64,000 nt of DNA from Collinsella aerofaciens. GTDB lineage: Bacteria; Actinomycetota; Coriobacteriia; Coriobacteriales; Coriobacteriaceae. The notes under the pieces are model-generated. The model was given only the letters and a program-made list of their open reading frames with translations, did no database searches and had not been told where the DNA came from. The translations under genes and the position numbers were made by a program. Below are positions 4,517 to 58,594 of this stretch, one piece after another; the stretch's first letter is position 1, and the number at the start of each line of letters is the position of its first letter. Where the stretch lies: contig NZ_JADNJQ010000001.1 in the NCBI RefSeq assembly GCF_015555045.1, positions 62,001 through 126,000 on the forward strand. Reading direction: 5' to 3'.

Positions 4517-4526
4517 TTCATCTCTC

Positions 4527-8652: not shown

Positions 8653-8661
8653 CGCGTCCTC

Positions 8662-11600
8662 CTATTTGATCTTCGCCAGGACGTCCTGGAACAGCGCGTA
8701 GTTGTGTTTCACGCCGTCGTCGAGATCAATCTCAATCATCTGGTCGGCGAGATGGTGCACCTTCTCATCGAAAGCGATCGTCTCGACGAGCTGGTCGGCG
8801 AGTTTCTTGCGACGTTTGCGCAGGTCGGCGGCCTCCCGTCTGTCCGCCGTCGCCATTGCGTCGTCAATAGCGTCGATCTGCGTGTTGTAGCGGTCCTGCT
8901 GCGGAAGTACATACTCGGTACGCAGACGTGCTAAAAGGTCTGGCGTGTAGCGGTGCATGTAGAAAAGTGCACGGAAGCCGCCCTTCTTGCCGCTGTCGAA
9001 AAGCCAGTAGATAGGACGCTTGCCCGCGCTCTGCACGCTGTAGGCCTTGCAATGGTCCGAGAAGAACCCGTCGCGGAAGTACGCGCGGATGACCTGGCGT
9101 GGCGTGCCAGTACCACCAAGAGCGTCGGCGACGAACTGCAGGTTCTCCTCCAGGTGCTCCTCACCGAATGCAGCTGCCATAAAGTCGACGAACAGACCCG
9201 TCGCGTCATCATGAAAATATTCGATATCGGTGAGAGGAATGATCCCATCTGCATCGGGTGTGAAGCTAGGCTCGGGCACCTGCTGCAGATACTCGGAAAG
9301 ACCGTCGCCCTGGTTCGCCAGCACGAGTCCCGACTTGTCAAGTGAGTAACGACCCATGATACAGCCCACTGCATAGCTGATGAGGCTCTTCACCTCGTCC
9401 GCCTTCGTGCGGACGTAATTGCTGCCTTTCAGTTCTTCGGGCACATCATCGTCACTGTCAAAGACGATGTGCACACTCACTTTGTCGAGCGGCACCTCGA
9501 TAGGCACCTCGTTTTCCATGTGGTAGATTTCCGCGAAGATACGGTTGAGTTCTTCCTCGTTTGCCTTGAGCTGATAGAATCGCTCACTGCACTCTGTTTT
9601 CCAGGACTCATAAGCCTGTTCTAGAGTCCCCTTAGACCTGTGGAGGCGGATGAGGGAGAGTTTGTCAAAATCCCATGAAGTCTCATAGGAGTCCCAATCA
9701 ACACGAGAAATGCTAACATTGGTGGGTGCCAATGTATCAACAGTATTTCTTGTTATCTCATCGGGCTCAACGTAAGGAATTGACCCCAGATAACCTGGAG
9801 GAAAGTTCAAAGTAGGATTTATAACATTAATTAAGGATCGATATGTCGATGATGACATAAGTGACAAAATATAGTTCAAGTTATGAAGGTTAATTACCTC
9901 ACAGAATGGACCAGCCGTATCAAACATGAACCCATTAGGAACATACCTGCAATGAAATGATGCCGAAGAAATAGTGCTCCAAGATATCCCTTCCTTGAAT
10001 GCTTGGGTCCCATTGAAATTATGCGCACGGCATCTTGACCCGTCATAATTATCGTTTTTCATTTCCCAACCGTCATTTTCCCAATTTACAACAAAATTGT
10101 TATTTCCATACCAAAGGCGATAGTTGCCACCTTTAGTGCAAGGAATCCATTTGCGTAAATTAGAATCACCAGGCATTAACCCAAATTCTATAGAGTTAAA
10201 AGATACCTCCTGCCATTGCTTTAAAAAGCGATTCACGTTTCCAGTTATCAGACCAACTCGAGCATCAATTTCGGTACTCAACATAGAGTTGCTTGCAAAA
10301 AGCATTACGGCATCACTTGGTAGCCAATATGCAATCGGGCTGCCAGGGATTTTCTTGAAATCCTGCTGGTTGGCACGGTAGAACCATCCACATTCAGGGT
10401 TGCGTATTGCCTCTCGCAATGCTGCGCTTTTTACAGCTTCTCCCAGCGGATCGACTAGCCTTACATATCCTCCACGAGCGTTCTGATAATCGTTCAGCAG
10501 CACTGTGGCTGTGGTCTGAACCACCTCGCCGCTGATGGCATCAAACGCCCGAGCCCCGAGATGAGCCATGTTGGCGATGGTCTTAGTCTCGATGATACTC
10601 TTGCGCAGGTTCTCGAAACTGCTCAGGAACATCCACGACTGCATGGTCACCATGGCGCTGTAGCCGCGCGCATCCGCGAGAGAAAAGCCCCTGCAAATAA
10701 AAGCAGCAAAGAGATCCGCTTTTCCATCGGGGTAGTTCTTCTTCACCCACTTGCCCATCCAAGGGTTCATACTGCCGCTTCCGAAATAGGGCGGGTTGGC
10801 GATAACCGCGTCATAATGCCGCGCAAGGGGCTCAAGCTCCTCGAGTGCCCGCTGCGCTTTCACGGCGGCGGCCATGCCGAACATGCCCGCCTCGTCCATG
10901 ACGGTTTCAGCGACCTCCCTCACCGATCCCAGATCTGCCTCCGTCGGCGCGAAGAGGCTGCCCGCCTCGTCGAGATGGGCCAAGACGTCAAGCAGGTCGA
11001 CCTGTTCGAGCAGGAACGGCGCGTCGATACGCTCCTGGTCCTTCATCGTGCGAGCTATGGCATCGCGCTCATTTTCGTCGAACTCGATGCGAGAGAGTAC
11101 CGTGATTCTCGGACGCACCCCACGACGCAGGAAGCGCGAGTCGTACTCGCACGCCTTCATGGTGAGCGCGAAGCTCGCCATCGCCGCCGCGCGCGGATCG
11201 ATCTCGAGACCCGTGAGGTTCTTCTCCAGGATAAGGCGCGGGATATCCCTGCGGGAATAGCCCTCCTCCTCGTACATGGCGGCTATCAAGTCGAAGGCGT
11301 ACACGAGTATATGGCCGCTTCCGCAGGCGGGATCCACTGCCGTGATGTCCTCCGGCGACTCAATGCACTTGAAATCAGCCTCGACATCCCCATCCGGCGC
11401 GATGTAGTACTCCATGCGGGTAGCAAGCGCGCTGTCCGGGTGGTTCAGCATCCACAGGCGACCGAGCGAGTTTTCCGTCAGGTAGCGGACGATCCACTCC
11501 GGCGTGAAAAGCTGGGTGGCAGGGGCCAGGTCCTCGCGCGTCGCCTTGCGCTTGGACGCGAAGTACTCGTCCTTGCGCTCGGAGACGTAGTACTGGTACA

Positions 11601-12216
11601 TCCAGCCCACGATCTCCACGCCTTCGAGCCAGTCCTCTTCGGGAATGTCCCCGACCATGCGCTCGATGACGCCGCCCGCCCTTAGTAGACCGTCGGGCAG
11701 AAGCAGCTCCATGCTCGAACCGACCTGCGAAAACACCGTGGGCATGCAACTGGCAAGCTCAGCACATTGGGCAAGGAACAGATAGCGGAACGTTTCCTCA
11801 TCATCGCCCGATTGAACCAGTTGAGCCACGTGCGCACGGTCGATGCCCTCTATGTCCACCTGCAACGCCTCGGCAAGCGCCTGCGGCTTGAAGGAGCCGT
11901 CGTTGCCGGAAAGGAGACGCGTGTGCGACGGGAGACGGTCGTTTATCTCCATGAAACGGATGGCCATAATGCGGTTAAACCAGGTATATGCGGCTTGCTC
12001 CACTAGTGTGTCGTAGCCTTCGTCGTGAGCTTTCCGCAAAAGGTCTGACCTTTGCTTGCGCTCTTGGGAGGAGAGAACCCTGCCGCCAACGGCCTGTGCG
12101 TCCTTCGGGTTCTCTGGATGTTCCGATATGTCGTACAGGGCGCATCTGCGCTCGACTTCAGAGATGAGCTCGCGGCGTGCCCAAACACAGAAATTCTTAA
12201 TGGCTGAATCGTGCAT
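8662..12216 (-). CDS. pglX: BREX type 1 adenine-specific DNA methyltransferase PglX
   Basis: The 1,184-residue protein contains the SAM-binding motif DPACGSGH (residues 295-302), a second FxIDP-like element (GLEIDPRAAAM) and the catalytic NPPY (474-477), the order of gamma-class N6-adenine methyltransferases. PglX methylates one strand of a short non-palindromic site, marking host DNA so BREX ignores it. The segment from about 9,640 to 10,480 (residues roughly 580-860, the region where the target-recognition domain lies) is strikingly AT-rich compared with both flanks, as if swapped in from another genome. Start ATG 12216 lies one base after the brxC stop and uses GGGAG inside brxC as its ribosome site. 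Confidence 0.96.
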   Translation of the reverse strand: MHDSAIKNFCVWARRELISEVERRCALYDISEHPENPKDAQAVGGRVLSSQERKQRSDLLRKAHDEGYDTLVEQAAYTWFNRIMAIRFMEINDRLPSHTRLLSGNDGSFKPQALAEALQVDIEGIDRAHVAQLVQSGDDEETFRYLFLAQCAELASCMPTVFSQVGSSMELLLPDGLLRAGGVIERMVGDIPEEDWLEGVEIVGWMYQYYVSERKDEYFASKRKATREDLAPATQLFTPEWIVRYLTENSLGRLWMLNHPDSALATRMEYYIAPDGDVEADFKCIESPEDITAVDPACGSGHILVYAFDLIAAMYEEEGYSRRDIPRLILEKNLTGLEIDPRAAAMASFALTMKACEYDSRFLRRGVRPRITVLSRIEFDENERDAIARTMKDQERIDAPFLLEQVDLLDVLAHLDEAGSLFAPTEADLGSVREVAETVMDEAGMFGMAAAVKAQRALEELEPLARHYDAVIANPPYFGSGSMNPWMGKWVKKNYPDGKADLFAAFICRGFSLADARGYSAMVTMQSWMFLSSFENLRKSIIETKTIANMAHLGARAFDAISGEVVQTTATVLLNDYQNARGGYVRLVDPLGEAVKSAALREAIRNPECGWFYRANQQDFKKIPGSPIAYWLPSDAVMLFASNSMLSTEIDARVGLITGNVNRFLKQWQEVSFNSIEFGLMPGDSNLRKWIPCTKGGNYRLWYGNNNFVVNWENDGWEMKNDNYDGSRCRAHNFNGTQAFKEGISWSTISSASFHCRYVPNGFMFDTAGPFCEVINLHNLNYILSLMSSSTYRSLINVINPTLNFPPGYLGSIPYVEPDEITRNTVDTLAPTNVSISRVDWDSYETSWDFDKLSLIRLHRSKGTLEQAYESWKTECSERFYQLKANEEELNRIFAEIYHMENEVPIEVPLDKVSVHIVFDSDDDVPEELKGSNYVRTKADEVKSLISYAVGCIMGRYSLDKSGLVLANQGDGLSEYLQQVPEPSFTPDADGIIPLTDIEYFHDDATGLFVDFMAAAFGEEHLEENLQFVADALGGTGTPRQVIRAYFRDGFFSDHCKAYSVQSAGKRPIYWLFDSGKKGGFRALFYMHRYTPDLLARLRTEYVLPQQDRYNTQIDAIDDAMATADRREAADLRKRRKKLADQLVETIAFDEKVHHLADQMIEIDLDDGVKHNYALFQDVLAKIK

Positions 12217-12217
12217 G

Positions 12218-15200
12218 CTAATCTCCCAGCCTTACCGCGCCGCTTTCGTGCAGCGCATCCATCAGGGTTTCTTTTACGCTATCCACATACGCCAGCACTT
12301 CTTCTTCGCTTCGCAAGGTCCTCGTGGGGCACACGCGGCTGCGGTGCAGAACCTTTGGCTTGGGTGCCGCCGGCTTCGCTGGCGGCATGTCGCTGTTAGT
12401 CGGCATCTTGCCGCGCTTTGCCGCCTCTTCCTTCGCGCGAGCCTGAGCGATCGCATCGTCAATCTTCTGGTACTGCTGCCCGCCCCATGTCTCGAGCTGC
12501 TTGAGCTGGGCATCGAGCTGGCTACAGCGCGTCTCGTTCATTGCGGCGTTCTTCTTCGCAGCGGCATCCTGACGAATAGAGGAAAGCACTCCCGCTACCG
12601 CGCTTTCGAGCGCTCCCGCCTCGTCTTTCGCGTAACGCTCGAGCGCCGACACCGCATCCTCGATGCTCTCGAGGAGGTTGTCGCGCTTGACCCCTGCGGC
12701 CTTGCTCAGCGCACCCGAAAGCCTCGAGTTCAGGGCCCCGAGGTCCTTGATTGCCGAGTAGGGCTTCTCCATGCCCAGGATGCGCTCGATGCGCTCGATG
12801 GCATCCTGCGCCTCCGAATCGCCTTCCAAGTAGACACCTTCAGTTTTGAGAGAGCCGATGAGCCTGGTGGAATCGTCCCACAGGCGCACCTGGCTGTTGA
12901 AGAAGCCGCGGATCTCGAGCATGTCCTCGGCGAAGTCGCGCAGGCCGTCTTGAACCTGCCTGTTGGCAAGCGCCATGCACAGAAGAAGCGGATCCGTCTC
13001 GTTGGATACTACGTTAGCGATAAGCTTTTGGCCGTCGACGACCACGCCCTTGCCTGGGTAGGCACTTCTGGAATAGCGCTGGGCGAGGAGGTCCCTGCAT
13101 TCCTCCTGGACATCGTGCAGTTTCTCCTTGGTGAAGGCGACTAAACCATCCTCGTCGGCAGGAACCTGGTTCGTGTCGGCGAAGTCCTTCATGAGACGCT
13201 GAACCGTCGCGAGCGTCGCAGGATCGATCGCCTCTCGTTTCTTGATTGAGGCTTTGTCCGCATCACGCCTGAGGCACGCGACGATCGCGTGGGCATCGCC
13301 CGAGTCGAGTTGCTTGCCGCCGACCGACAAGGCGACCTTCTGGTCGTAGAGCATGCGCGCGACGACGGCCGCTATGTCCGCCTCGCGCCATCCATAGGGC
13401 ACCTTCTGGTACTTGCGCTTGAGGTCTCCCATATTGGTCGCCTGCTTCGAATATGCCTGAGCGTCGAGGAACAGCATGATTTCGTCCATGGCGCGCTGGT
13501 TCGGCAGGTTTCCGTCCGTGTCGGGCTGGTTTAAGAGCTCGCCTCTGAATACCGAGATGATCTCGGAATCGGAACTTACCGAGGCATCGATGTAGTCGGC
13601 CTTGGTGTAGGTGCTCTTCACGAGCTCGTCCAGCGCGGCCTCGATCACCTTCGGCGCGCTCTTCTCGCGGACGGCGACCATGCGCCCGTCCACTGCGACG
13701 CGGGCGTGTGCCACGGCATCCTCGAGGGACTTGCGCGCGGCCCTCTCGTTTTCCCGCGCCTCCTCGCGCTTACGGGTCACGATCTCACGCTTCGAAGCCG
13801 ACCACTGCTCGCGTGAGCTCATGCGGATGTACTTCTCCACTCGGCAGCTCATGTCCAAAAGGTCGTAATAGTCTCCCTCTTCCAGTCCTATGAGCGCCTG
13901 GTTCGTCGACTTGAAGGCGAACTCGGAATCGGCCAGGCGCGACCACTCGTGCGCGTAGGTGATCACGTTGAGCTTCATTCCGCCCATGTCCTTGCCGTGA
14001 ACCGAATCGTCCACGTAGCGGTCGAACGGGAAGTCGTTCACACCCACGCGGTGTTTTGACGAGGTGAATATGCCGTCGAAGAGCAGGCGCTTGATGCGAT
14101 CGATGACCTCGGAAGACTCTATCTGCACTTTGGATATCTCGTCGGCGACGTCCTGCTCCTCGCTGGTGAGGAAGTTGTACCTGTCGCCGTTTCTTGCGGC
14201 CTTGTTCTCGCGGACGAGCCGCTCGAGCGATGCTTGTACCTCGCGGCGCAGCTCGACCTTGTCGACGTCCATGGAGTCGATCATGAGGTTGGCGATGTTG
14301 TTCACGTTGGGCGTGATGTCGCCGATGTAGCGGATGAGATAGAGCGTCTTGATGACGTGCACGTCCTGTTGGAACAGCCCGTGCCCCTCGTCGGCGGCGT
14401 CCTGGCAGCGGTTGATGACTTGGCGGATGCCGTAGTCGAGCGCCGTCTCCATGGTGTCGTAGAAACGCCAGAACGGGATGAGCGCTCCGATATCGTCGTT
14501 TTCGACCGGCCAGACAGATTCTTGGAAAGCCGATATCATCGAGCGCTCGCCGCTGGACATGTGCTTTCCGGAGAAGCCGTGCTCGCGCGTCCTGGTGAAC
14601 ACGTCGGGCAGGATGCGGAACTGGTAGCCCACGAACGGGTAGCTTTCCACGAAGTCGCGCTCGCTGGCGTAGCCGAAAAGGTCGCTCGTGGAGTCGTCGA
14701 AGGTGAAGAGGTTCTTGAGCACCGTCGCCTTCTGCCCGTACTCGACTTCGAGGGCTGCCTTCGCCTCGTCTTTTTTGGCGAGGATGCGCTCCTTGATGAC
14801 CTCGTCAACGTCGCTCGACGACAGCGAAAGCCTGGTGTCGAAGCGTCCCTGGATCTTGGAGAAGTCCATGCCGACGACGCTCGTCACCGAGTCGATCGCC
14901 TGTTGGCTGGTGACGACGATCCAGACCTTGTCTCCGCAGTAGGTGCCCAGGTCCTCGGTCAGCGTCTGCATGCTCAGCATGAGGCTGCTGTCTGAGCCTA
15001 TGAACTGGCCTATCTCGTCGGCCATGAACAGAAGCCTGAACTCGCCACCGGTCTCCGACTCCCTCTTAGCGATGTACTCGGCGACCTCCTTGGCAAAGGT
15101 CTCCGACGAGATGACGTCGGTCTCGGTGCCGTCGAACCAGTGCTGGGCGGCGTCCCTGCTCATCCCGAGCACCTCTTGCAAGGTCTCGACCATCTCGTCT

Positions 15201-15823
15201 TCGTAGAACGACCAGCCGTCGCGGTTATCCAACCAGTCCATGCCGCTTATGCGCTCGAAGGCCGCGCGGAACTCCTCTGTCTTGCCCTTCTCGTCGATGA
15301 AAGCCTCGAGCTTGGCGAGCTTGAGGTCCTCGCCGTAGAAACCCCGGTTCTCGTAGAACACCCTTTGAAACGAGCGTAAGAGCGCCGTCTTGGCGGTGTC
15401 TCCCTCTTTCCACTTGCCTCCCTTGGAGTCCACGTTGAACAGCAACGTCTCGGTCGGGATGGCGGAGACGCGCTTCATGGAAGCGAACACCATGGGGTCA
15501 GCGATCTTGCCCTCGAAGTAGTCGACCGCGCGCTTACCGCCGACCACCGGGTTCGAGAGCACGTAGCTGAGCATCTTCAGGAAGTGGGACTTGCCCGATC
15601 CGAAGAAGCCGCTTATCCACGCGCCGATCTTGCCGGTCGGCATGTCGATGGAGCGCTCGTAGTTGTGGAAGAACGTCGCGAAGTGACCCTGGAGCTCCTT
15701 TGCAACGACGTATTCCTCGAGCTCCTGGATGACGAGCTTTTCATCGACGTCGCCAACCTTCACAACGCCATTAATGTCGCGGTCGATATCGTGTTCGAAT
15801 ATGTCACGGATATGCATATGCAT
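12218..15823 (-). CDS. brxC: BREX type 1 P-loop ATPase BrxC
   Basis: The 1,201-residue protein matches BrxC in length and layout: a Walker A loop GFFGSGKS at residues 72-79 inside the family-typical WISGFFGSGKSHFLKML, a Walker B LLFMADEIGQF near residue 275, and a long helical C-terminal half with an Ala/Lys-rich low-complexity tail before residue 1160. BrxC is an AAA+/ORC-like ATPase needed for both methylation and restriction in BREX. The start is written MHMH (ATGCATATGCAT), so either the first or third codon could be used. It begins 8 bp after the brxB stop. Confidence 0.96.
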   Translation of the reverse strand: MHMHIRDIFEHDIDRDINGVVKVGDVDEKLVIQELEEYVVAKELQGHFATFFHNYERSIDMPTGKIGAWISGFFGSGKSHFLKMLSYVLSNPVVGGKRAVDYFEGKIADPMVFASMKRVSAIPTETLLFNVDSKGGKWKEGDTAKTALLRSFQRVFYENRGFYGEDLKLAKLEAFIDEKGKTEEFRAAFERISGMDWLDNRDGWSFYEDEMVETLQEVLGMSRDAAQHWFDGTETDVISSETFAKEVAEYIAKRESETGGEFRLLFMADEIGQFIGSDSSLMLSMQTLTEDLGTYCGDKVWIVVTSQQAIDSVTSVVGMDFSKIQGRFDTRLSLSSSDVDEVIKERILAKKDEAKAALEVEYGQKATVLKNLFTFDDSTSDLFGYASERDFVESYPFVGYQFRILPDVFTRTREHGFSGKHMSSGERSMISAFQESVWPVENDDIGALIPFWRFYDTMETALDYGIRQVINRCQDAADEGHGLFQQDVHVIKTLYLIRYIGDITPNVNNIANLMIDSMDVDKVELRREVQASLERLVRENKAARNGDRYNFLTSEEQDVADEISKVQIESSEVIDRIKRLLFDGIFTSSKHRVGVNDFPFDRYVDDSVHGKDMGGMKLNVITYAHEWSRLADSEFAFKSTNQALIGLEEGDYYDLLDMSCRVEKYIRMSSREQWSASKREIVTRKREEARENERAARKSLEDAVAHARVAVDGRMVAVREKSAPKVIEAALDELVKSTYTKADYIDASVSSDSEIISVFRGELLNQPDTDGNLPNQRAMDEIMLFLDAQAYSKQATNMGDLKRKYQKVPYGWREADIAAVVARMLYDQKVALSVGGKQLDSGDAHAIVACLRRDADKASIKKREAIDPATLATVQRLMKDFADTNQVPADEDGLVAFTKEKLHDVQEECRDLLAQRYSRSAYPGKGVVVDGQKLIANVVSNETDPLLLCMALANRQVQDGLRDFAEDMLEIRGFFNSQVRLWDDSTRLIGSLKTEGVYLEGDSEAQDAIERIERILGMEKPYSAIKDLGALNSRLSGALSKAAGVKRDNLLESIEDAVSALERYAKDEAGALESAVAGVLSSIRQDAAAKKNAAMNETRCSQLDAQLKQLETWGGQQYQKIDDAIAQARAKEEAAKRGKMPTNSDMPPAKPAAPKPKVLHRSRVCPTRTLRSEEEVLAYVDSVKETLMDALHESGAVRLGD

Positions 15824-47896: not shown

Positions 47897-48496
47897 ATGA
47901 GCGGAACGATACACATTTCCTTTCCCAAACCGGGCACCGTACTCACCTACGCTGACGCTTTCAAAGCGTACCGTGAGCTTGAGGGCTACATGCTCTCGCG
48001 CGTCTACATCTCCTCTTTCCAAGGCAATGTCGGGGTCTACGACCTCATAACGCACCTAGAGGATCTGGCATCGAAGCACGGAGTCGACGACGGAAGAAAG
48101 CTCAGCAGCCTGCGCGAGCTGATGCATCTGTTCGTCTCCGAGCGCACCGCTCTGGCCAACGGCGTCAACGGCGCGCGCTTTTACCTACATGGGAACGCGA
48201 AAGCGCTGGCAAAGCACGACGAGACGCACCTGTTCGAGATTGGCATCGACGGCGAGAGGCTGTGCCGGGAACTCGATGAGTTCATCGAGCTCCTTGGCGA
48301 AGAGTCTGCAGACACCGACGAGTATGCCGACACCTATTCGCCCTATCCACCGAAAAGAATGGCCACGAGGAAGACAAACAACGGGTTCCCGAAATGGCTT
48401 ACAGTCAGCATCTGCGCTCTCATGGCCTGCTTCGGCCTGTCGGTACTTGCCCATGTCATCATCCAATTTGGAATTCTCTCAAGATGGCTTGTGTGA
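47897..48496 (+). CDS. Unknown C-tail-anchored protein (199 aa)
   Basis: The product from ATG 47897 (GAAAGGACAGGCC) has a soluble alpha/beta N-terminal part (GTIHISFPKPGTVLTYADAFKAYREL), an acidic linker and a C-terminal membrane helix (LTVSICALMACFGLSVLAHVI). The long frame upstream to 47597 is another frame of the preceding gene. No domain is recognised; the tail anchor suggests a membrane-associated partner of the preceding 84-residue protein. Confidence 0.6.
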   Translation: MSGTIHISFPKPGTVLTYADAFKAYRELEGYMLSRVYISSFQGNVGVYDLITHLEDLASKHGVDDGRKLSSLRELMHLFVSERTALANGVNGARFYLHGNAKALAKHDETHLFEIGIDGERLCRELDEFIELLGEESADTDEYADTYSPYPPKRMATRKTNNGFPKWLTVSICALMACFGLSVLAHVIIQFGILSRWLV

Positions 48497-48653
48497 CGTC
48501 CATGTCATACAGCGAAGTCCTTAGGATACAAGCCGAATTATCCAGACATTCATTCTTATACGCTTGGAGCCAACGCGCACTTGCAATCACGCTGACTTCG
48601 CAGGGAATCGCAGGCGAGTGCCCCGAATGAGAAACGAGAGGAGTGTTCTTCTA

Positions 48654-48683
48654 TTGCCAAAAACAGCATTCGATGGTATAAAG
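48654..48683 (+). promoter_or_regulatory. Promoter of the DUF3800 leader RNA
   Basis: TTGCCA (48654-48659) and TATAAA (48678-48683) are 18 bp apart. A transcript would begin near 48,690. Confidence 0.6.
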
Positions 48684-48689
48684 TAGGTG

Positions 48690-48748
48690 GTTCTCCGATA
48701 GGAGGGCTTCCAAGTGCCGGGGACGTTTTCCCCGGCTTTCTTTGTTTT
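48690..48748 (+). ncRNA. Short terminated leader RNA upstream of DUF3800
   Basis: About 60 nt lie between the promoter and a strong hairpin: CTCC-GATA-GGAG first, then GCCGGGGA...TCCCCGGC followed by TTTCTTTGTTTT, a Rho-independent terminator about 10 bp before the DUF3800 start. Conserved RNA motifs upstream of DUF3800 genes have been described from comparative genomics (the DUF3800 RNA motifs); whether this belongs to one needs a covariance search. A terminated RNA directly before a toxin-like gene also resembles the type III toxin-antitoxin layout. Confidence 0.5.
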
Positions 48749-48758
48749 AGGGGGCGAA

Positions 48759-49430
48759 TTGCGCGAGCTCAGCCTGTTCATAGACGAATCCGGGAGCGAC
48801 AACCTGAGGGACAGGTATTATCTCCTCACGCTCGTGCTCCACGAGCAGGACGAGGACGTGTCCGAGAGCATTCGCCTGTACGAGCGTTCGCTCGCCGAGA
48901 AGGGTCTGCCCGACATCCCGTTCCATGCCTCCCCGCTGCTGAACGGCCATGACAGCTACGAGAACATGGACCCTGCCGACAGGAAGCGTCTCCTCTCGTC
49001 GTTCAGAGTCTTCTTCCGCCACATGCCGGTACGCTACACGTGCATCACGCTCAAGACGAAGGAGCACGGCGACCTCGACGGAGTCACGGCCGCGATGCGC
49101 AAGCGCCTCGTCGACTTCCTGTTCGACAAGCTGACGTACTTCCAGGATTTCGATGTCGTCAAGATCTATTACGACGACGGGCAGAAGTCGGTCGCGCAGG
49201 CGATCCACAAGGCCGTCGATTACGCCCTCTCGAAAGACGCGATGGTCTACAGGCTGGCCTCTTCCTCGGACTACAGGCTCAGCCAGATCGCGGACTACAT
49301 CTGCACGATGGAACTGACCGCCCTCAAGTACGCCGACAAAGCGTCCACCGCTACCGATGAGAAGTTCTTTGGCTCGTGGTCCCAGTTCAGGAAGGGCATC
49401 CTCAAGGAAGTGCGGGCGAAGAGAATCTAA
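48759..49430 (+). CDS. DUF3800 protein
   Basis: The most likely start is TTG 48759, because AGGGGG stands 4 bases before it and the family begins with LSLFIDESG; a start further upstream would lie within the terminator hairpin. The 223-residue protein shows FIDESGSDN (5-14), PFHASPLLNG, KIYYDDGQKSV and a C-terminal LSQIADYICTMELTALKYAD, the DUF3800 pattern, with acidic residues spaced as in a metal-dependent nuclease fold. The biochemical role of DUF3800 is not settled. Confidence 0.8.
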   Translation: MRELSLFIDESGSDNLRDRYYLLTLVLHEQDEDVSESIRLYERSLAEKGLPDIPFHASPLLNGHDSYENMDPADRKRLLSSFRVFFRHMPVRYTCITLKTKEHGDLDGVTAAMRKRLVDFLFDKLTYFQDFDVVKIYYDDGQKSVAQAIHKAVDYALSKDAMVYRLASSSDYRLSQIADYICTMELTALKYADKASTATDEKFFGSWSQFRKGILKEVRAKRI

Positions 49431-49922: not shown

Positions 49923-50296
49923 TTTACTCCCTTTCACCTGCGATTTCGCAATTTACTCCCCCGTGTTTCAAGACGGCAAGGCACGGTGCGGCATTCGGAG
50001 GAACGGGAGTAAGGATTCATCCCAAGTGAGTAGACGCGCGATTTTTGTCTCCGAGAGCCAAACGGGGCCGTTTCGGGGCCTGTGAAACTCAAATCGAACT
50101 CAATAGGCTTTTCGGCGGTCTTCTCACAGCGTTTTCCCAGGTGGTTAATGGGGAGTAAAGAATCTCGCCGCCTCAATGAAAACGGGAGTAACCAGGGGAA
50201 ATGCCGCGGCGTACTGCCGCGTGCCGCCGTGTAAGCCACCGCGTCATTTACTCCCCAGGTGCGCCGGAAATGCCTTGGCATGCAATGGGGAGTAAA
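49923..50296. repeat. Seven copies of TTTACTCCC / GGGAGTAAA (putative integrase arm sites)
   Basis: Copies are at 49923-49931, 49952-49960 and 50247-50255 (TTTACTCCC) and at 50005-50012, 50151-50159, 50184-50191 and 50288-50296 (GGGAGTAA, usually followed by A). Short dispersed repeats in both orientations next to xis/int are what an AP2-type integrase N-terminal domain binds. Weaker matches occur at 49,757 and 49,863. Confidence 0.7.
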
Positions 50297-51142: not shown

Positions 51143-52213
51143 ATGCCCGTGTACAAGGACGACGGCAACGGCACGTTCTACGTGCAGTGCTACTACCGCG
51201 ACGCCCGCGGCTCGAAGCGCCACAAGACGAAGCGCGGCTTCTCCTCCGAGGTGGAGGCCGCAGTGTGGGAGAGCCAGTTCAAGAGCCTTAACGGCGGGGC
51301 CATGGACATGACGTTCTCCGAGTTCGTCGAGGTGTACGCCTCCGAGGTGAAGCCGCGCATACGCGAGCACACGTGGATCACCAAGGAGTACATCATCAAC
51401 GACAAGCTCGTGCCGTTCTTCGGGGACATGCGCATGTGCGACGTGAGGCCGATCGACGTCATCAGGTGGCAAAACGAGCTCACCGAGCACCGGGACGCCG
51501 ACGGGAAGCCCTGGGCACCGACGTACCTGCGCACAGTGAACAACCAGCTCAACGCCATCTTCAACCACGCCGAGCGCTACTACGGCCTCAGCGACAACCC
51601 GGTGCGCAGGGTCGACAAGATAGGCTCGAAGAAGGGCGGCGAGATGCAGTTCTGGACCAAGGACGAGTACCTGAGGTTCAGCGAGGCCGTCATGGACAAG
51701 CCTCTCTCATTCCACGCCTTCGAGCTGCTTTACTGGACGGGCATACGCTGCGGCGAGCTCCTGGCGCTCACGCCGTCCGACTTCATGCTGGAGAGCTCGC
51801 GGCTGCGCATCAACAAGTCGTACCAGAGCCTCAACGGCGTTGACACCGTGACCGACCCCAAGACGCCCAAGTCCGTGCGCACGATCGTCATGCCCGCCTT
51901 CCTGCGCGACGAGATGGCGGACTTCATCGAGATGCGCGACGACGTCGCCCCCGACGAGCGCCTGTTCGCCGTGACCAAGCACTTCCTGGCCCACGAGATG
52001 GAGCGCGGGTGCAAGGCGTCGGGCGTGAAGCGCATCCGCGTGCACGACATACGCCACAGCCATGTGAGCCTGCTGATAGAGATGGGCTTCTCCGCGCTGG
52101 CCATCGCCGAGCGCATGGGCCACGAGGCGGTGGACATCACCTACCGCTACGCGCACCTGTTCCCCACGAAGCAGGACGAGATGGCCGCCGCGCTCGACGG
52201 GGCGAGGGGGTAA
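51143..52213 (+). CDS. int: Tyrosine recombinase (ICE/phage integrase)
   Basis: The 356-residue protein has an N-terminal AP2-like arm-binding domain (residues 1-50), a SAM-like core-binding domain (57-150) and a catalytic domain with Arg202 (TGIRCGEL), a Lys near 243, His301-x-x-Arg304 (HDIRHSH), His327 (MGH) and Tyr336 (RYAHL), a complete set. It integrates and excises the surrounding element. The repeats at 49,923-50,296 are its likely arm sites. Which side of them forms the element cannot be told from this window. Confidence 0.95.
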   Translation: MPVYKDDGNGTFYVQCYYRDARGSKRHKTKRGFSSEVEAAVWESQFKSLNGGAMDMTFSEFVEVYASEVKPRIREHTWITKEYIINDKLVPFFGDMRMCDVRPIDVIRWQNELTEHRDADGKPWAPTYLRTVNNQLNAIFNHAERYYGLSDNPVRRVDKIGSKKGGEMQFWTKDEYLRFSEAVMDKPLSFHAFELLYWTGIRCGELLALTPSDFMLESSRLRINKSYQSLNGVDTVTDPKTPKSVRTIVMPAFLRDEMADFIEMRDDVAPDERLFAVTKHFLAHEMERGCKASGVKRIRVHDIRHSHVSLLIEMGFSALAIAERMGHEAVDITYRYAHLFPTKQDEMAAALDGARG

Positions 52214-52647: not shown

Positions 52648-54351
52648 CTAGCGCCAGACCTCCAACGCCTTGTCCGCAAGCCATTCGGCGCGATCGGCGA
52701 TATCGCCCTCGTTCCAAGACTCCTTCTCTAGGGCGCCGGCCATGGTCGCAAGGCCGGCGGCGCAGAGGGCCAAGCCGTCCTTGTATCCCTTTCCCTGCTT
52801 CTTGGTGGTCCAATCGGCATCGCGGATGGAGGCGTTGAGCGAATGCGTGATGATGGCGAGGTTGCCGAGCGTGAGGAGCTTCCGGTCCCTTCGCGTTGCG
52901 GCTTCGTCGTCGAGGGCTCCCCATTTGTTGCGCCACTTCTTGGGCATCATGTGCTCGAGGGTGTACTGGTTGAACCCGAGCAGGGCCGTGCTGCTCATGC
53001 CCGGACGAATGGCGCTTTCCAGCAGATAGAGGACGCCCTTGGACTGGAGGTTGTACAGACACGATTCCTCGAATGCCGCTCGAACCTCGGCGTCGCCGGG
53101 CATGTACGTCGTCGCCTCGTCATTGGCTTCGAGAGCCTTCCTCAGCGCCTCCGCGTCCTTCACCTCGTTCAGGATCAGCGAGGTGAACAGCCTGTTGTAG
53201 TTCTTCGTGGTCGCCTGAACCAGCATTCGGCGGACGATGTAGCTCTCAAGCAGGGCGTAGATCTTAGATTCCTCGCTCGAAGACTCCGCGTTCTTTCGAA
53301 CGTAGAGCACGTACGGGATGAGCGTCGAGTTCTTGAGGCCGAATATCAGCACGTTCAGGCGCTCGACGCCGGAAGCGGAGGGGATGTCCGCGTCGCAGTA
53401 GCCAGGGTCGAACGTGGACTCGAACGCCTCGGCATACGCCTTCATGTTGTCGAGAATCTCGACCTTGTCGCCGTTGCAGTACCTGCCGATGAAATCCTTG
53501 TAGGACTGGAAGAGGTTCGAAGTACGCGAATAGAAGAGCTTGTCCTCGGTCGTGACGCCACGCCTCTTGTCCTGGACCAGAATCTGGAGGAACGCGTCGA
53601 AGAAGAGGTCGACGAGCGTGCGCTTGATGCGCCCGGTAACGATCTCCTGCTCCCAATACTCCCTCTTCTCAGCCGTGGGCTCGAAGACGTCTTCCCAGCA
53701 CTCCTTGAACGCCTGCTCGTTCTCGCGGTTGAAGAAGTAGTTCTTGAGGAGCTCCGCCGTCGTCAGGCGCACCCCGAGCGAGTTGATGGTGTCGAATATC
53801 TGCTGCTCGTCCTCGCCCTCGGTAAGGTCGATGCAGACGAACTGGACGTTCGACTTGATCGTGTTCCTGTCGACCTTCTCCGGGTCGATATTCTTGAGGA
53901 AGTAGTTGTAGGCAAGGACGATGGCCGAGGAGCCCTCGAGGGGTTCGCAGCCCGTGGCGCTGACGACCTTTTCGAAATCCTGCCGGTCGTACTTGCCGTG
54001 CCGCAAGGCGACATCGCCGGTCTCCAGGACGAAATCTCGCTCAAACAAATTGTTGGTGCCGTTTTTTGCACAGAGTGCCTTGAAGAAGATGACCATGGTC
54101 GTGAGTCGCTGCTGGCCGTCGATGACGGTGCGAACCTCGGAGACCTCGGACCAGGTGTTGCCGGAGGAGGCCTGCTTCAGGATGATGGAGCCCAGGAAAT
54201 AGGGCCGCTTCGAGGCCGTGACGAACTCCATGTCGCCGAGGAAACGCTCCCATTGCTCTTCTCCCCAGACGTACGCCCTTTGGTAAAAAGGTATTTCGAG
54301 CAGGCGCGATCCGTTGAACACGCCGCTTATCGTTGCTTTTCCTGCATCCAT
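52648..54351 (-). CDS. DUF262/HNH restriction-type protein (GmrSD/SspE-like)
   Basis: The 567-residue protein has the DUF262 ParB-like NTPase start (IPFYQRAYVW at 20-29, DGQQRLTT at 78-85) and a C-terminal DUF1524-type HNH region (YTLEHMMPKKWRNKWG, LTLGNLAIITHSLNASI). This single-chain architecture is shared by GmrSD type IV enzymes, which cut modified phage DNA, and related defence nucleases. It is the last gene of the leftward restriction island, 51 bp after the DUF4238 gene, and overlaps nothing on the integrase side (3 bp gap to the RHH gene, convergent). Confidence 0.87.
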   Translation of the reverse strand: MDAGKATISGVFNGSRLLEIPFYQRAYVWGEEQWERFLGDMEFVTASKRPYFLGSIILKQASSGNTWSEVSEVRTVIDGQQRLTTMVIFFKALCAKNGTNNLFERDFVLETGDVALRHGKYDRQDFEKVVSATGCEPLEGSSAIVLAYNYFLKNIDPEKVDRNTIKSNVQFVCIDLTEGEDEQQIFDTINSLGVRLTTAELLKNYFFNRENEQAFKECWEDVFEPTAEKREYWEQEIVTGRIKRTLVDLFFDAFLQILVQDKRRGVTTEDKLFYSRTSNLFQSYKDFIGRYCNGDKVEILDNMKAYAEAFESTFDPGYCDADIPSASGVERLNVLIFGLKNSTLIPYVLYVRKNAESSSEESKIYALLESYIVRRMLVQATTKNYNRLFTSLILNEVKDAEALRKALEANDEATTYMPGDAEVRAAFEESCLYNLQSKGVLYLLESAIRPGMSSTALLGFNQYTLEHMMPKKWRNKWGALDDEAATRRDRKLLTLGNLAIITHSLNASIRDADWTTKKQGKGYKDGLALCAAGLATMAGALEKESWNEGDIADRAEWLADKALEVWR

Positions 54352-54402: not shown

Positions 54403-55530
54403 TCAATACGCTGCTTGACCCTTTAATGTTCCCGGTCCTTGCCGTCTTCTCCCCAGAAGGTGCTCGAAGATGATGCGCAGGTCCTCGTCATCAAGGCAGC
54501 CGCCCTCGAGGCAGCCACGGTCGATGGTATCGATCATCGTCTGCCCCTTCTTCTTCGAGCGGTCGTAGATCACTGTGTCGAGGGATAGCTCCCTGCCGTC
54601 GCGCGTGAACATCTCGTGCATGAATTCGGCACTGTTCGCTTGACTCCAATCGCGTACCGCGTGCTCGAGCGGGCCGCTTCCCCTCGATATGGCGACATCC
54701 CAATGCTCGCAGTTAAGCAGAAGAAGTCGGTTCATGAACTCGACGCCCGAAAAACCGAGTCTCGCAAACGGCAGAAATAGAGGGTCATCTGAAAAGACCG
54801 CAGCATACTCACTGCTCAACGGCATATACGCGAGATGAAAATCGTACGAGTCGTTCTCGGGCCCGATGATGAACATAGGCATCGACGTCGTAACGAACCC
54901 TGAGCCGACGGGTGCCCTAAGGATGGAGAAGCTCTTCTCAAAAAAAGCCTTTCGAATACGGTTAACTGGCACAATATCATCGTTGGAGAAGAGCATGGTT
55001 GCGGCGGCGGCAAGCTCGACCACCGCTTGGGAATCCCCGCGCCAATCCGACCAATCGAGCAAGCCGAGCTCATAGGGTGTCAGATGAACGTTTCTGAGCA
55101 GCTCTTCGGCAGTCTCGCGTGACCATTTCTTGTCGACGCGCATACTGATAGGGTGCCGGACGATGATATTTGCTGCCAGCTCGCAAACGGCGGCTTTCCC
55201 ATCAGAATACCCTTCGTCTTCGCACCGGTCTTCTTTCTGGCGTTCCAAAAAGCGATCGTAAAGCGGCGCGATGCGGCTCTCGAGCTCAGATAGCTTAACC
55301 TCGATGAGGTTCTGCGCATAGAATCTGTCTGTCGCATCGCCTGTCGCATCGGCATGCTCGACCTCATAAAGATCGCGCATGCTGCAAAGGTTCTCGCAAT
55401 TCGTGCGGAAGAAGGAGCCCTTCTGTCTGCTGTAGGCATGAAGCTGCCCGGAGGAATCCGCGAAATGGCGCAGGTAGAACCGCGGCACCCAGTGCTGCTT
55501 TCGCGTCATCTTTCCGGGCAGCTTCGACAT
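54403..55530 (-). CDS. DUF4238 protein in the restriction operon
   Basis: The 375-residue protein begins with the DUF4238 signature KQHWVPRFYLRHFAD (residues 11-25), then YSRQKGSFFRTNCENLCSMRDLYE, and has RHPISMRVDKKW in the middle. DUF4238 proteins are frequent in defence islands and carry conserved His/Arg/Asp residues suggestive of an enzyme, but the activity is not known. It starts 1 bp after the Res stop, so it belongs to the type III operon here. Confidence 0.83.
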   Translation of the reverse strand: MSKLPGKMTRKQHWVPRFYLRHFADSSGQLHAYSRQKGSFFRTNCENLCSMRDLYEVEHADATGDATDRFYAQNLIEVKLSELESRIAPLYDRFLERQKEDRCEDEGYSDGKAAVCELAANIIVRHPISMRVDKKWSRETAEELLRNVHLTPYELGLLDWSDWRGDSQAVVELAAAATMLFSNDDIVPVNRIRKAFFEKSFSILRAPVGSGFVTTSMPMFIIGPENDSYDFHLAYMPLSSEYAAVFSDDPLFLPFARLGFSGVEFMNRLLLLNCEHWDVAISRGSGPLEHAVRDWSQANSAEFMHEMFTRDGRELSLDTVIYDRSKKKGQTMIDTIDRGCLEGGCLDDEDLRIIFEHLLGRRRQGPGTLKGQAAY

Positions 55531-55531
55531 C

Positions 55532-58500
55532 CTAAGCCTTCACCGCCTCGTATTGGTAGGTCGTGCGCACGTTGTAATGGAAGTCGTTTCCGAGGTCCAG
55601 CGCCTCGAAGTGCTTCTTGGCGCAGCCGATCTTGATCTTCTCCGCGTCGCGCAGGGCGGGCTCGCCGTTCTTGCCGCCCTTGGTCTCGGTCACGAAGTAC
55701 ACGCGGCGCTCGCCGTCGGCCTCCTCGACGTACGCCCAGTCGGGGTTGTAACTGCCGAGCGGCGTGTCGATCTTGAACGCCGAGGGCAATTTCGCGAACA
55801 CGAGAACCTCCTCCTGCTTGTCTAGAGCCTCGGCAAAGGAGCGCTCGACCCCCGCCGAGTCGTAGACCACGTAGTTGTACAGGCTCTTGCTCGTCATGTC
55901 CGGCTTCCACGCGTTCTGCCCAAGGTAGGCCGTGTAGTCGTCAAGCTCGAGGTCGCGCATGGTGTACCACTCGTCCTCGGGAAGGCGCACGTACTTGATG
56001 CCCTGGGCGATGAGGTCGTTCTTCACGCGGTTGATCTTGTCGCCGACCTGCGCGAGGAAGGTCGCGGGGTCGATCTCGAACTCGTCGAGGCGGCTGCAGC
56101 CCTCGAGGATCGCCTTGATGGTGCCGCGGGTGAGCCCGACGGCGTCCTGCAGCTCTGCGATCGGGTCGGGAAGGTCGTATTTCACCTTTCCCGAAACGGA
56201 CACCACGGAGGTGCCCGTGCCCTCGGCGCTCACGCCCGCGTCGTCGATGCCCAGCGAGGCACGCTCGCTCGTCACCTGGGGCGGGCGCACGGCGAGCATG
56301 CCGTCGACAGCTTCGATGGCATGCTCGATGAGCTTGCCGGAGTCGACCTCGACCTGGAAGCGCGTGCGCTGGCGGATGCGGTCCCACAGGGCCTGGAACG
56401 CAGGGTCGAGCGTGACGTCCTTCTGCAGCTCGACCGAGACCTCCTTGGCCTTGTCACGGATCTGGACCCTCTGGGACTTGTGGATGATGATCGCCTCGAC
56501 CTGCTCCTTGGCAGGCTCGAGCTCGGCGGGGAGCTCGACCTTGCCCTCCTCGGCGGCCGCCTTCAGCTCGGGCGTCACCGCGCCCTTGCCGTCGACCATG
56601 CCGGTCGCGACGAGGTGGTCGTAGACCTGCTTGGACTTCTCGTAGCCCAGGCGCTCCTCGACGCCATCATCGCCCTTGACCGTGACCTTCGTGAAGCTCT
56701 CCGGAGTGATGACGCCGAACTTGAAGTCCTCAGCCTCAAGCTCCTTCTGCAGGCCGTTGGCGAAGTCGTCGTAGCTCTCGTTCGCGATGACGGTGAGCAC
56801 GTTCGCCTCTGGGTCGTACAGGCGCTCGCCATCCTGGTTCACGCACAGGCGCAGACCGCGGCCGATCTTCTGGCGCTTGGTCAGGTTGTCCTTTGTCTCG
56901 ACGAGCGTGCAGATCTGGAACACGTTGGGGTTGTCCCAGCCCTCCTTGAGCGCGGAGTGGCTGAAGACGAAAGAGACGTCCTTGTCCGCGTCCTTGCCGT
57001 CCGGGAAGGAGATGAGCGTCTCCTTCTTCTGCATGATGAGCTCGAAGGCCCCGGCGTCGTCGGCGGTGCCGGCGGCTCCCTTGGAGTCCTTGAACTTGCC
57101 CTTCTTGTCCTTGGCGAAGTATCCCTGGTGCACGGCGTGGGGGTCGCGCACCAGCGGGGCGCCGACGGCTTCGTAGCACTCGAGCCACGTGCCCTTGCCG
57201 ATCCCCGCCGCCTTTGCGATGCGACGAGGCGCCTTCGAGTTCAGGGCACCTGCGTACTCCTCCTCAAACATCAGGGCGTACAGGCCGCCGTGGACTTCGG
57301 GCTCGTAGACGCGGTATCGGTCGACGCGGTCGATGAAGAAGAGCGAGAGCACCTTCACGCCGCGCGGCCACAGCTCGAACTGGCGGGCCAGGTGGTCCTC
57401 GATGGTGCGGCGGATCTGCGCGCGCTTGACGACCTCCTCGTTGACGTCGCCCAGCGCCTCGCCGAGCTCGAGCACCTCGCCGTTCTGGAACTCTATGAAC
57501 TCGTCGCCCACTGCGGCGCCGATGTTGTTGACCACCCAGCCGCTCTCGTAGTCGCTGTTCTCGCCGCTCTTCTGGTAGAGGTCGTTGCCGGTCTTCACCG
57601 TGACGGCCTTGCGCTTCTGCGTGCCGTCGGCCTGGCGCACGTCGATGGACACCTTGGCGGAGAACGGGTCGGACTTGACGGACTCGAGCCTCACGTACGC
57701 GCCGTTGAGGTTCGCCTCGGCCTTGATCGAGTCCACGCAGATGCCCTTCACCAGGTGGCGCTCGAAGGCGTCGACCGGCGTGAGGCGGTAGATCATGTTG
57801 TAGGCCTGCTTGTGCGTGGCCGAGTAGCGCAGCACGAACAGCGGGTTCAGGCTCTTGATGGCGGCCTTGGCCTGCTTGGTGTTGTCGACGCTCTGGGGCT
57901 CGTCGATGATGACGACGGGCTTGCAGGCGCTCACGAGCTCGCGAGGGCTGAAGCCGCCGGTGAGCTTCTCGCTGGGACGGTGGAAGAGGTTGCCCTCCTT
58001 CGCGGTGCCATCCTTCTCGAGGCCCTTGTTGAACGCGTCGATGTTGATGACCATGACCTGGATGGAGCTCGACGTGGCGAAGTTACCCACCGGCCCCATG
58101 TCCTTCGAGTCGTACACGAAGTAGTCGAGCGGCGTGCGGTCGTAGAGCGTCTCGAAGTGCCTGCGGGTGGTCTGGAGGCTCTTGAGGACGCCCTCGCGGA
58201 TGGCCACGCTCGGCACGACGATAACGAACTTGGTGATGCCGTAGCGGCGGTTTAGCTCGTAGATGGAGCGGATGTAGACGTAGGTCTTGCCGGTGCCGGT
58301 CTCCATCTCGACGGTGAAGTCTCGCAGGCGCCCATCGGTGAGGACGTCGGTTGCCGGGAGGCAGCCCTCCTCCTGCACGGCGTGCAGGTTGTCGAGGAGC
58401 TGGCCCGGCGCCACGCGAAGCTCGTTGCCGTGGCCGACCATGAGCTCGCCGATTGCCGTCTGGCCTTTGCGGCCGGAATCGGCGGAGAATACGCTGCCAA

Positions 58501-58594
58501 TAAATTGTTGTCCGCGGAACAGGTCGCAGGTTGCTTCGATGGCCTCCAGCTGGTGCTGCTGGTCGGATGAGAACTTGAACTCGAGCGCCGCCAT
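55532..58594 (-). CDS. res: Type III restriction enzyme Res subunit
   Basis: The 1,020-residue protein has superfamily 2 helicase motifs (METGTGKTYVY, Walker A near 97-107; IIDEPQSVDN, motif II near 231; SHSALKEGWDNPNVFQICTL and QKIGRGLRLCVN, motifs V/VI) and a C-terminal PD-(D/E)XK nuclease (NPDWAYVE...VYFVTETKGG). Res translocates or switches on DNA and cuts when two Mod-bound sites collide. The gene is intact, but its Mod partner immediately upstream (1 bp gap) is truncated, so it has no functional recognition subunit in this window. Confidence 0.94.
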   Translation of the reverse strand: MAALEFKFSSDQQHQLEAIEATCDLFRGQQFIGSVFSADSGRKGQTAIGELMVGHGNELRVAPGQLLDNLHAVQEEGCLPATDVLTDGRLRDFTVEMETGTGKTYVYIRSIYELNRRYGITKFVIVVPSVAIREGVLKSLQTTRRHFETLYDRTPLDYFVYDSKDMGPVGNFATSSSIQVMVINIDAFNKGLEKDGTAKEGNLFHRPSEKLTGGFSPRELVSACKPVVIIDEPQSVDNTKQAKAAIKSLNPLFVLRYSATHKQAYNMIYRLTPVDAFERHLVKGICVDSIKAEANLNGAYVRLESVKSDPFSAKVSIDVRQADGTQKRKAVTVKTGNDLYQKSGENSDYESGWVVNNIGAAVGDEFIEFQNGEVLELGEALGDVNEEVVKRAQIRRTIEDHLARQFELWPRGVKVLSLFFIDRVDRYRVYEPEVHGGLYALMFEEEYAGALNSKAPRRIAKAAGIGKGTWLECYEAVGAPLVRDPHAVHQGYFAKDKKGKFKDSKGAAGTADDAGAFELIMQKKETLISFPDGKDADKDVSFVFSHSALKEGWDNPNVFQICTLVETKDNLTKRQKIGRGLRLCVNQDGERLYDPEANVLTVIANESYDDFANGLQKELEAEDFKFGVITPESFTKVTVKGDDGVEERLGYEKSKQVYDHLVATGMVDGKGAVTPELKAAAEEGKVELPAELEPAKEQVEAIIIHKSQRVQIRDKAKEVSVELQKDVTLDPAFQALWDRIRQRTRFQVEVDSGKLIEHAIEAVDGMLAVRPPQVTSERASLGIDDAGVSAEGTGTSVVSVSGKVKYDLPDPIAELQDAVGLTRGTIKAILEGCSRLDEFEIDPATFLAQVGDKINRVKNDLIAQGIKYVRLPEDEWYTMRDLELDDYTAYLGQNAWKPDMTSKSLYNYVVYDSAGVERSFAEALDKQEEVLVFAKLPSAFKIDTPLGSYNPDWAYVEEADGERRVYFVTETKGGKNGEPALRDAEKIKIGCAKKHFEALDLGNDFHYNVRTTYQYEAVKA

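Follow-up and report, generated by a model that had tools for sequence, protein, structure and literature searches.

A conserved two-hairpin RNA gene upstream of DUF3800, often found inside BREX loci, fits an RNA-restrained defence toxin

Introduction

In type III toxin-antitoxin systems (ToxIN, CptIN and TenpIN), an RNA gene lies 5' of a nuclease gene and the terminator between them sets the ratio of RNA to mRNA. Excess of the RNA by termination, and a block of the toxin by that RNA, make up the textbook scheme. A comparable order was described for AbiF/RCd22 of C. difficile, in which a SigA promoter, a small structured RNA, a Rho-independent terminator and the effector gene follow one another (PMC12373285). 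AbiF, an Abi_2/Cas13-related protein, is toxic. Deletion of the RNA region raised abiF expression 17-fold, and the RCd22 RNA, which is ~98-132 nt long with two abiF motifs and is not cleaved into units, co-purifies with the protein (PMC12373285).

Published work assigns DUF3800 proteins an RNase H fold in which there is a catalytic rearrangement, and describes them as accessory nucleases of certain type V-A2 and VI-F CRISPR loci (PMC10910872, PMC12669027). The TPR-DUF3800 proteins beside Cas12a2 are multi-domain CRISPR accessories with links to defence and to ncRNAs (PMC10910872). Rfam catalogues RNAs that precede DUF3800 genes but assigns them no function. The locus described here adds an unlisted family to them, together with functional hints: the RNA outlives the gene, extra RNA copies occur, and the pair clusters with BREX.

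Results

Promoter, RNA, terminator and gene in the window

We analysed a stretch of 64,000 nucleotides of Collinsella aerofaciens DNA, referred to as the window. Its DUF3800 locus has the following features (basis in brackets):

48654-48682, + strand: promoter, TTGCCA, 17-nt spacer, extended -10 TGgTATAAA (sequence)
48689-48748, + strand: two-hairpin small RNA, predicted transcript (CM match, fold z, covariation)
48689-48708, + strand: hairpin P1, GGUUCUCC/GGAGGGCU, sequence-variable, covarying (9/9 pairs changed on both sides)
48709-48715, + strand: single-stranded linker, UCCAAGU type, 7 nt (aligned RNAs)
48716-48748, + strand: hairpin P2, GCCGGGG..CCCCGGC, with T-rich tail, an intrinsic terminator (terminator search, fold, alignment)
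48749-48754, + strand: likely ribosome binding site AGGGGG (sequence)
48759-49430, + strand: DUF3800 gene, 223 aa, TTG start, predicted RNase HII-like fold (Pfam, AlphaFold, Foldseek, VIA-align)

The first-pass annotation had proposed a promoter, a ~60-nt RNA of two hairpins, the second a terminator, and a DUF3800 gene with a TTG start. Both promoter hexamers were read in the sequence (TTGCCA at 48654-48659, TATAAA at 48677-48682), but they are separated by 17 nt rather than the 18 nt given, and the -10 is extended. This promoter was not listed by a simple promoter scan of the window because the scan requires T as the final -10 base. The two hairpins were confirmed by coordinates and by fold, with an 8-bp P1, P2 proper at 48716-48736 and its T-rich tail at 48737-48748, and the terminator was also picked up by an independent terminator search. 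The RNA is predicted at 48689-48748, with the -10 used to place its 5' end and the terminator its 3' end. Folding of these 60 nt gave -27.8 kcal/mol (z -3.45), and none of 200 shuffles folded equally well. A covariance model matched 48683-48742 at 58.3 bits (E 2e-14), far above chance. The gene call also stood, as an ORF at 48759-49430 matching Pfam DUF3800 (PF12686; 32.4 bits, E 1.8e-7, above the gathering cut-off of 21 bits).

No tandem repeats were found in 48400-49000, so that the RNA is one unit, and the RNAs of relatives are single units as well. In a search of the window for a competing antiterminator stem, the best alternative was 10-17 kcal/mol weaker; a riboswitch or attenuator with an antiterminator was rejected, there being no stable competing stem.

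Conservation of the RNA

Relatives were gathered by protein similarity alone (37 loci; 20 of 43 genomes of the same genus), and their upstream regions were inspected afterwards. Nearly all share one order: TTGnnn, ~17 nt, TGnTATAAR, P1, YCAAGn, GCCGGGG..CCCCGGC, a T-run and the ORF. Covariance model R1, built from 7 seed members of equal length followed by CM realignment, gave 61 strong matches. Of the P1 cells 90% were base-paired, and each of the 9 pairs had changed on both sides (52 distinct sequences); the whole RNA structure showed 104 both-side changes compared with 32 in shuffles. When the pairing partner was slid, paired cells fell from 94% to 49-64%.

Linker length hardly varies, 88 of 92 aligned RNAs having exactly 7 nt. 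The same 29-nt core, UUCCAAGUGCCGGGGACGUUUUCCCCGGC, recurs without a mismatch in 14 of 38 protein-selected loci; among these are Gardnerella loci with a GC content of 44-46% that encode proteins ~58% identical to that of the window. The sequence of linker and P2, 29 identical nucleotides in Gardnerella and Collinsella, is thus kept beyond what a terminator needs. Given the covariation and the identical core, the RNA is under both structural and sequence constraint. The first-pass annotation had asked whether homologous loci lack a conserved RNA structure; they do not, as the structure is retained and covaries strongly. The window thus holds a genuine small RNA gene with two hairpins (predicted transcript), conserved among gut Actinobacteria.

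The DUF3800 protein

DUF3800 was the only Pfam family found in the window protein, with no match to ToxN/AbiQ or to Abi_2/AbiD/F. PADLOC gave no model at E<1, NCBIfam and PHROGs gave nothing convincing, and a sequence search of the PDB gave nothing. The AlphaFold model (pLDDT 91.6, pTM 0.90, from 27 sequences) had as its best Foldseek match 3p83_E, an RNase HII/H2 structure (E 9.7e-4). VIA-align placed RNase H2/HII/HIII in the top ranks, with 1eke_B at a moderate Z of 8.4 over 159 residues (rmsd 3.8 A). An RNase HII-like fold is therefore predicted for the protein from these models. Residues D9, E10, H56, D139, Q142, Q176 and E185 are invariant and D179 is near-invariant among aligned DUF3800 proteins, and the conserved residues include a DE-S-G motif. 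At the level of sequence, this motif resembles the DE-A-G motif of RNase HII.

Comparison with described RNAs and systems

The first-pass annotation had linked the RNA to the DUF3800 RNAs of Rfam. No Rfam DUF3800 model matched the window, at gathering thresholds or at a relaxed E<10; the relaxed search returned chance-level matches far below cut-off (rli42, hairpin ribozyme and others), and the Coriobacteriia RNA set is not in Rfam. The link held in part, since DUF3800-XI (RF02975) is a relative. It too consists of a hairpin joined by a linker to a second, GC-rich hairpin, and it precedes DUF3800 genes, among them those of viral contigs L177-L181, where model R2 weakly matches some of its positions (L180, 31.4 bits; L178, 25.1 bits). 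The sequence of P1 (UGGGCUGGUCGAAAGACCC... in XI) and the linker (CCAAG in the window RNA) differ, and the window is without a match to RF02975 at its gathering score of 37.8 bits or at E<10. Because DUF3800-XI does not match the window, we file the window RNA as a new unlisted branch, a divergent cousin of DUF3800-XI.

The parallel with type III toxin-antitoxin operons, also drawn in the first-pass annotation, survived as far as the layout is concerned. The order of RNA gene, terminator and nuclease-fold gene was read in the sequence of 88 linked loci, behind a promoter in the window. It failed on the parts: the type III antitoxin consists of tandem repeats with a pseudoknot, whereas the window RNA is one unit of two plain hairpins, and the predicted RNase HII-like protein differs in fold from ToxN. 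Lacking the repeats and having a different predicted fold, the locus is not a member of type III, although it may work like one. Promoter, small structured RNA, Rho-independent terminator and effector gene are likewise shared with AbiF/RCd22, where the effector is Abi_2/Cas13-related and the RNA longer; here the effector is DUF3800, with a predicted RNase HII-like fold, and the RNA is ~60 nt. The TPR-DUF3800 proteins share the family and the RNase H-type fold predicted here, but the window protein is a single domain with its own RNA gene.

A longer conserved region (~110 nt) lies upstream of DUF3800 in three spirochaete loci (L032, L033, L038) and ends in GCCGGAGG..CCTTCGGC and a T-run. Judged from its sequence, it is possibly another unlisted DUF3800 RNA; the L032 region had no Rfam match.

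Distribution

Among 396 Coriobacteriia genomes, model R2 was positive in 113, which represent 42 of 153 genera and have up to 8 copies per genome; DUF3800 (profile A5) was found in 123 of the same 396. In an evenly sampled set of the phylum, all 14 RNA-positive genomes belonged to the window's own order. Among protein-selected loci, the RNA was also seen in Gardnerella, Bifidobacterium and an Actinomycetaceae MAG. The phage records searched gave no match, and the plasmid records searched gave one, a Collinsella record of 900 kb.

RNAs with and without the gene

The listing comprises 150 RNAs, of which 88 directly precede a listed DUF3800 ORF, 6 lie beside one and 56 do neither, so about one third have no intact DUF3800 adjoining. 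The distance from RNA to ORF was 15-55 nt in 86 of the 88 linked cases. We read 41 of the 56 unlinked RNAs: 25 had no DUF3800 similarity within 1.2-1.5 kb, and 16 had such similarity nearby, which was an intact gene farther on in 2 cases and a truncated or internally deleted DUF3800 in 14. Deleted remnants include L123, where profile residues 1-63 are followed by 174-222 in a different frame, as well as L124, L125, L135 and L139. At least five apparent orphans sit at contig ends (for example in G010), and the true orphan share is therefore somewhat lower. Gene remnants beside RNAs are also expected of any decaying accessory gene.

Conversely, 20 DUF3800 loci were without a listed RNA. A divergent upstream copy was present in 15 of them (R2, E<0.01); the other five comprised one with a DUF3800-XI-like RNA, one with P1 deleted, two with an insertion-sequence-like end in front of the gene and one cut by a contig end. 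At most ~5 of 108 examined DUF3800 loci thus lack such an RNA.

P1 of orphan RNAs was 92% paired, with 82 both-side changes compared with 30 in shuffles; as these RNAs were picked by model score, this conservation is biased upward. The -10 is not contained in the model and gives an independent test. The motif TGnTA(T/C)R stood at the matching position in 28 of 32 linked RNAs, 18 of 29 orphans and 4 of 8 flanking copies; its frequency among random 16-mers was 0.4%. RNA genes were also found in genomes with no detected DUF3800. In several loci a second RNA lies just downstream of the gene (L047, L049, L048/L027, L021 and others), and the window's own genome has three RNAs and one intact DUF3800, the other two RNAs being orphans on contig C32 (591-651, minus; 763-823, plus). 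The orphan RNAs, the flanking RNAs and the BREX association described below go beyond what the first-pass annotation claimed.

Several single loci were also noted. In C. aerofaciens TSDC17.2 (L207 6528-7196; H1, NZ_OY725717.1 261518-262195), a DUF3800 gene beside brxL is split by a stop into two annotated ORFs, and its RNA is intact. A DUF3800-like C-terminal segment (residues 152-223) lies within a 160-185-aa frame in three genomes of the genus (window's genome C11:150155-150370, L063; L056; L064), and the AAG-GCCGGGG core was not found nearby. In L010/L011 (1-245), GGACACA..TGTCC repeats resembling insertion-sequence ends stand directly 5' of the DUF3800 start, and no RNA was seen on the available contig side. 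L011 1666-1768 matches the Rfam azaaromatic (yjdF) riboswitch. An inverted repeat, CTAAGTGAGTAGnCTTT...AAAGnCTACTCACTTAG, lies near RNA copies in L069 (~360-490) and L047 (~2370-2500), with related AGTGAGTAG pieces in L074, in L079 and near 50020-50035 of the window; it may represent a small mobile element of this genus.

Genomic context and BREX

The window encodes, besides a TraG-type coupling protein (Pfam), the following:

2345-15823, - strand: BREX type 1, with brxL, pglZ, pglX (single 1184-aa ORF), brxC and an unassigned 500-aa ORF between pglX and pglZ (Pfam)
51143-52213, + strand: tyrosine integrase (Pfam)
52648-54351, - strand: GmrSD (Pfam)
54403-55530, - strand: DUF4238 protein (Pfam)
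55532-58594, - strand: type III restriction res subunit (Pfam)

Among Coriobacteriia, PglZ was found in 46 genomes, and in 18 of these an RNA or DUF3800 lay within 15 kb of it, compared with ~1 expected at random, counting loci as independent irrespective of shared ancestry. The RNA was commoner in genomes with PglZ (30 of 46) than without (83 of 350). In 12 genomes the module sits on the opposite strand between ORFs matching residues 1-856 and ~865-1184 of the window PglX (L027, L196-L202, L208, L209, L211, L212); in L210 the RNA alone occupies this slot, and in L204-L207 the module adjoins brxL. In most of these BREX genomes pglX consists of two ORFs with variable genes between them. In the window itself pglX is one ORF, and the module is ~43 kb from it. 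Neither DUF3800 nor split pglX is mentioned in the main text of a 2026 survey of BREX neighbourhoods (PMC12839542).

In the split pglX genes (L196-L202, L208-L212, L027), the N part runs to about residue 856 and the C part, of ~322 aa, begins MATLI(x)DKYEAxKAEV; variable cargo lies between them. In L205-L207 pglX is split with no DUF3800 in the gap.

In other genera, Pfam annotation of the gene context gave ordinary neighbours in many cases, so the link to defence rests on BREX and on the window. The clustering with BREX could reflect a shared insertion slot instead of a shared function.

LexA-type boxes in promoters of relatives

A GAACNNNNGTTY box was found in 12 of 79 distinct promoters, 55-60 nt upstream of the RNA model start (in some also at 82 nt), against an expectation of 0.011 per region. 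In the window's genome, three boxes of this type precede lexA and one lies in the recA locus. In L047, L059, L062 and L077 the box, as read in the sequence, occupies the spacer of a second, perfect-looking promoter, TTGACG-17-TATAAT. Because of these boxes some relatives look SOS-inducible, and SOS control of the RNA-DUF3800 module is likely in some lineages. The window's own promoter has no LexA box. Boxes at the fixed distance were noted in L021, L027, L030, L044, L045, L047, L059, L062, L065, L077 and L141.

Discussion

The pair of RNA and gene, often inside BREX anti-phage loci, fits an RNA-restrained defence toxin. We regard it as just about probable that the locus is an RNA-controlled nuclease module, its nuclease neutralised by the RNA, acting like AbiF/RCd22 and type III systems. 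A single promoter would yield large amounts of a ~55-60-nt RNA ending at its own terminator, and occasional read-through would supply the DUF3800 mRNA. The folded RNA, in excess over the protein, would bind DUF3800 in trans and keep the RNase HII-like nuclease off. Stress or phage infection may upset this balance, and the freed nuclease would then attack RNA or RNA-DNA hybrids and halt growth. Defence islands, BREX in particular, might retain the module as a guard or back-up, and where the nuclease gene decays a harmless RNA would remain. This parallels AbiF/RCd22, for which an RNA-held toxin has been demonstrated (PMC12373285). More doubtful is our tentative proposal of a new RNA-antitoxin class, with an RNase HII-fold toxin held by a ~55-nt two-hairpin RNA, solitary trans-acting antitoxin RNAs genome-wide, a guard or back-up role in the BREX pglX slot and SOS wiring in some lineages. 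If the RNA cures DUF3800 toxicity in trans, a set of orphan ncRNAs would be explained and BREX biology would gain an RNA-controlled effector.

The near-constant company of the RNA, and the several RNA copies per gene that are common, would also suit an obligate cofactor, the RNA and DUF3800 forming an active ribonucleoprotein nuclease whose supply or variants come from the extra copies. DUF3800 does occur as an accessory RNase H-fold nuclease in the CRISPR loci cited above. We hold this to be unlikely: RNA genes keep promoter and structure with no DUF3800 nearby, or none detected in the genome, and the variable part of the RNA is a base-paired hairpin rather than an open guide. Guiding by base pairing is disfavoured on this last ground. 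A role as cis leader alone, with DUF3800 expression set by a leaky terminator or switch and the RNA doing nothing in trans, agrees with the terminator that almost all linked copies have between their promoter and the gene, and with the rise in expression on deletion of the AbiF RNA region (PMC12373285). We think it improbable, as free-standing RNA copies with promoters occur both after the gene and at other sites, the search for a competing antiterminator stem was negative, and linker and P2 retain more sequence than a terminator requires. Orphan and extra RNAs are predicted by a toxin with an RNA antitoxin, and a role as leader only does not predict them.

The patchy distribution, the islands with integrase or IS neighbours and the repeated occupation of the pglX slot might be taken as marks of a selfish or mobile cassette, with hosts and slot (BREX, islands) incidental and DUF3800 acting on DNA or RNA to further its own spread. 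This seems very improbable to us. No cassette ends were seen in an unsystematic look for terminal repeats and target duplications; the neighbours vary, and the gene decays while the RNA stays.
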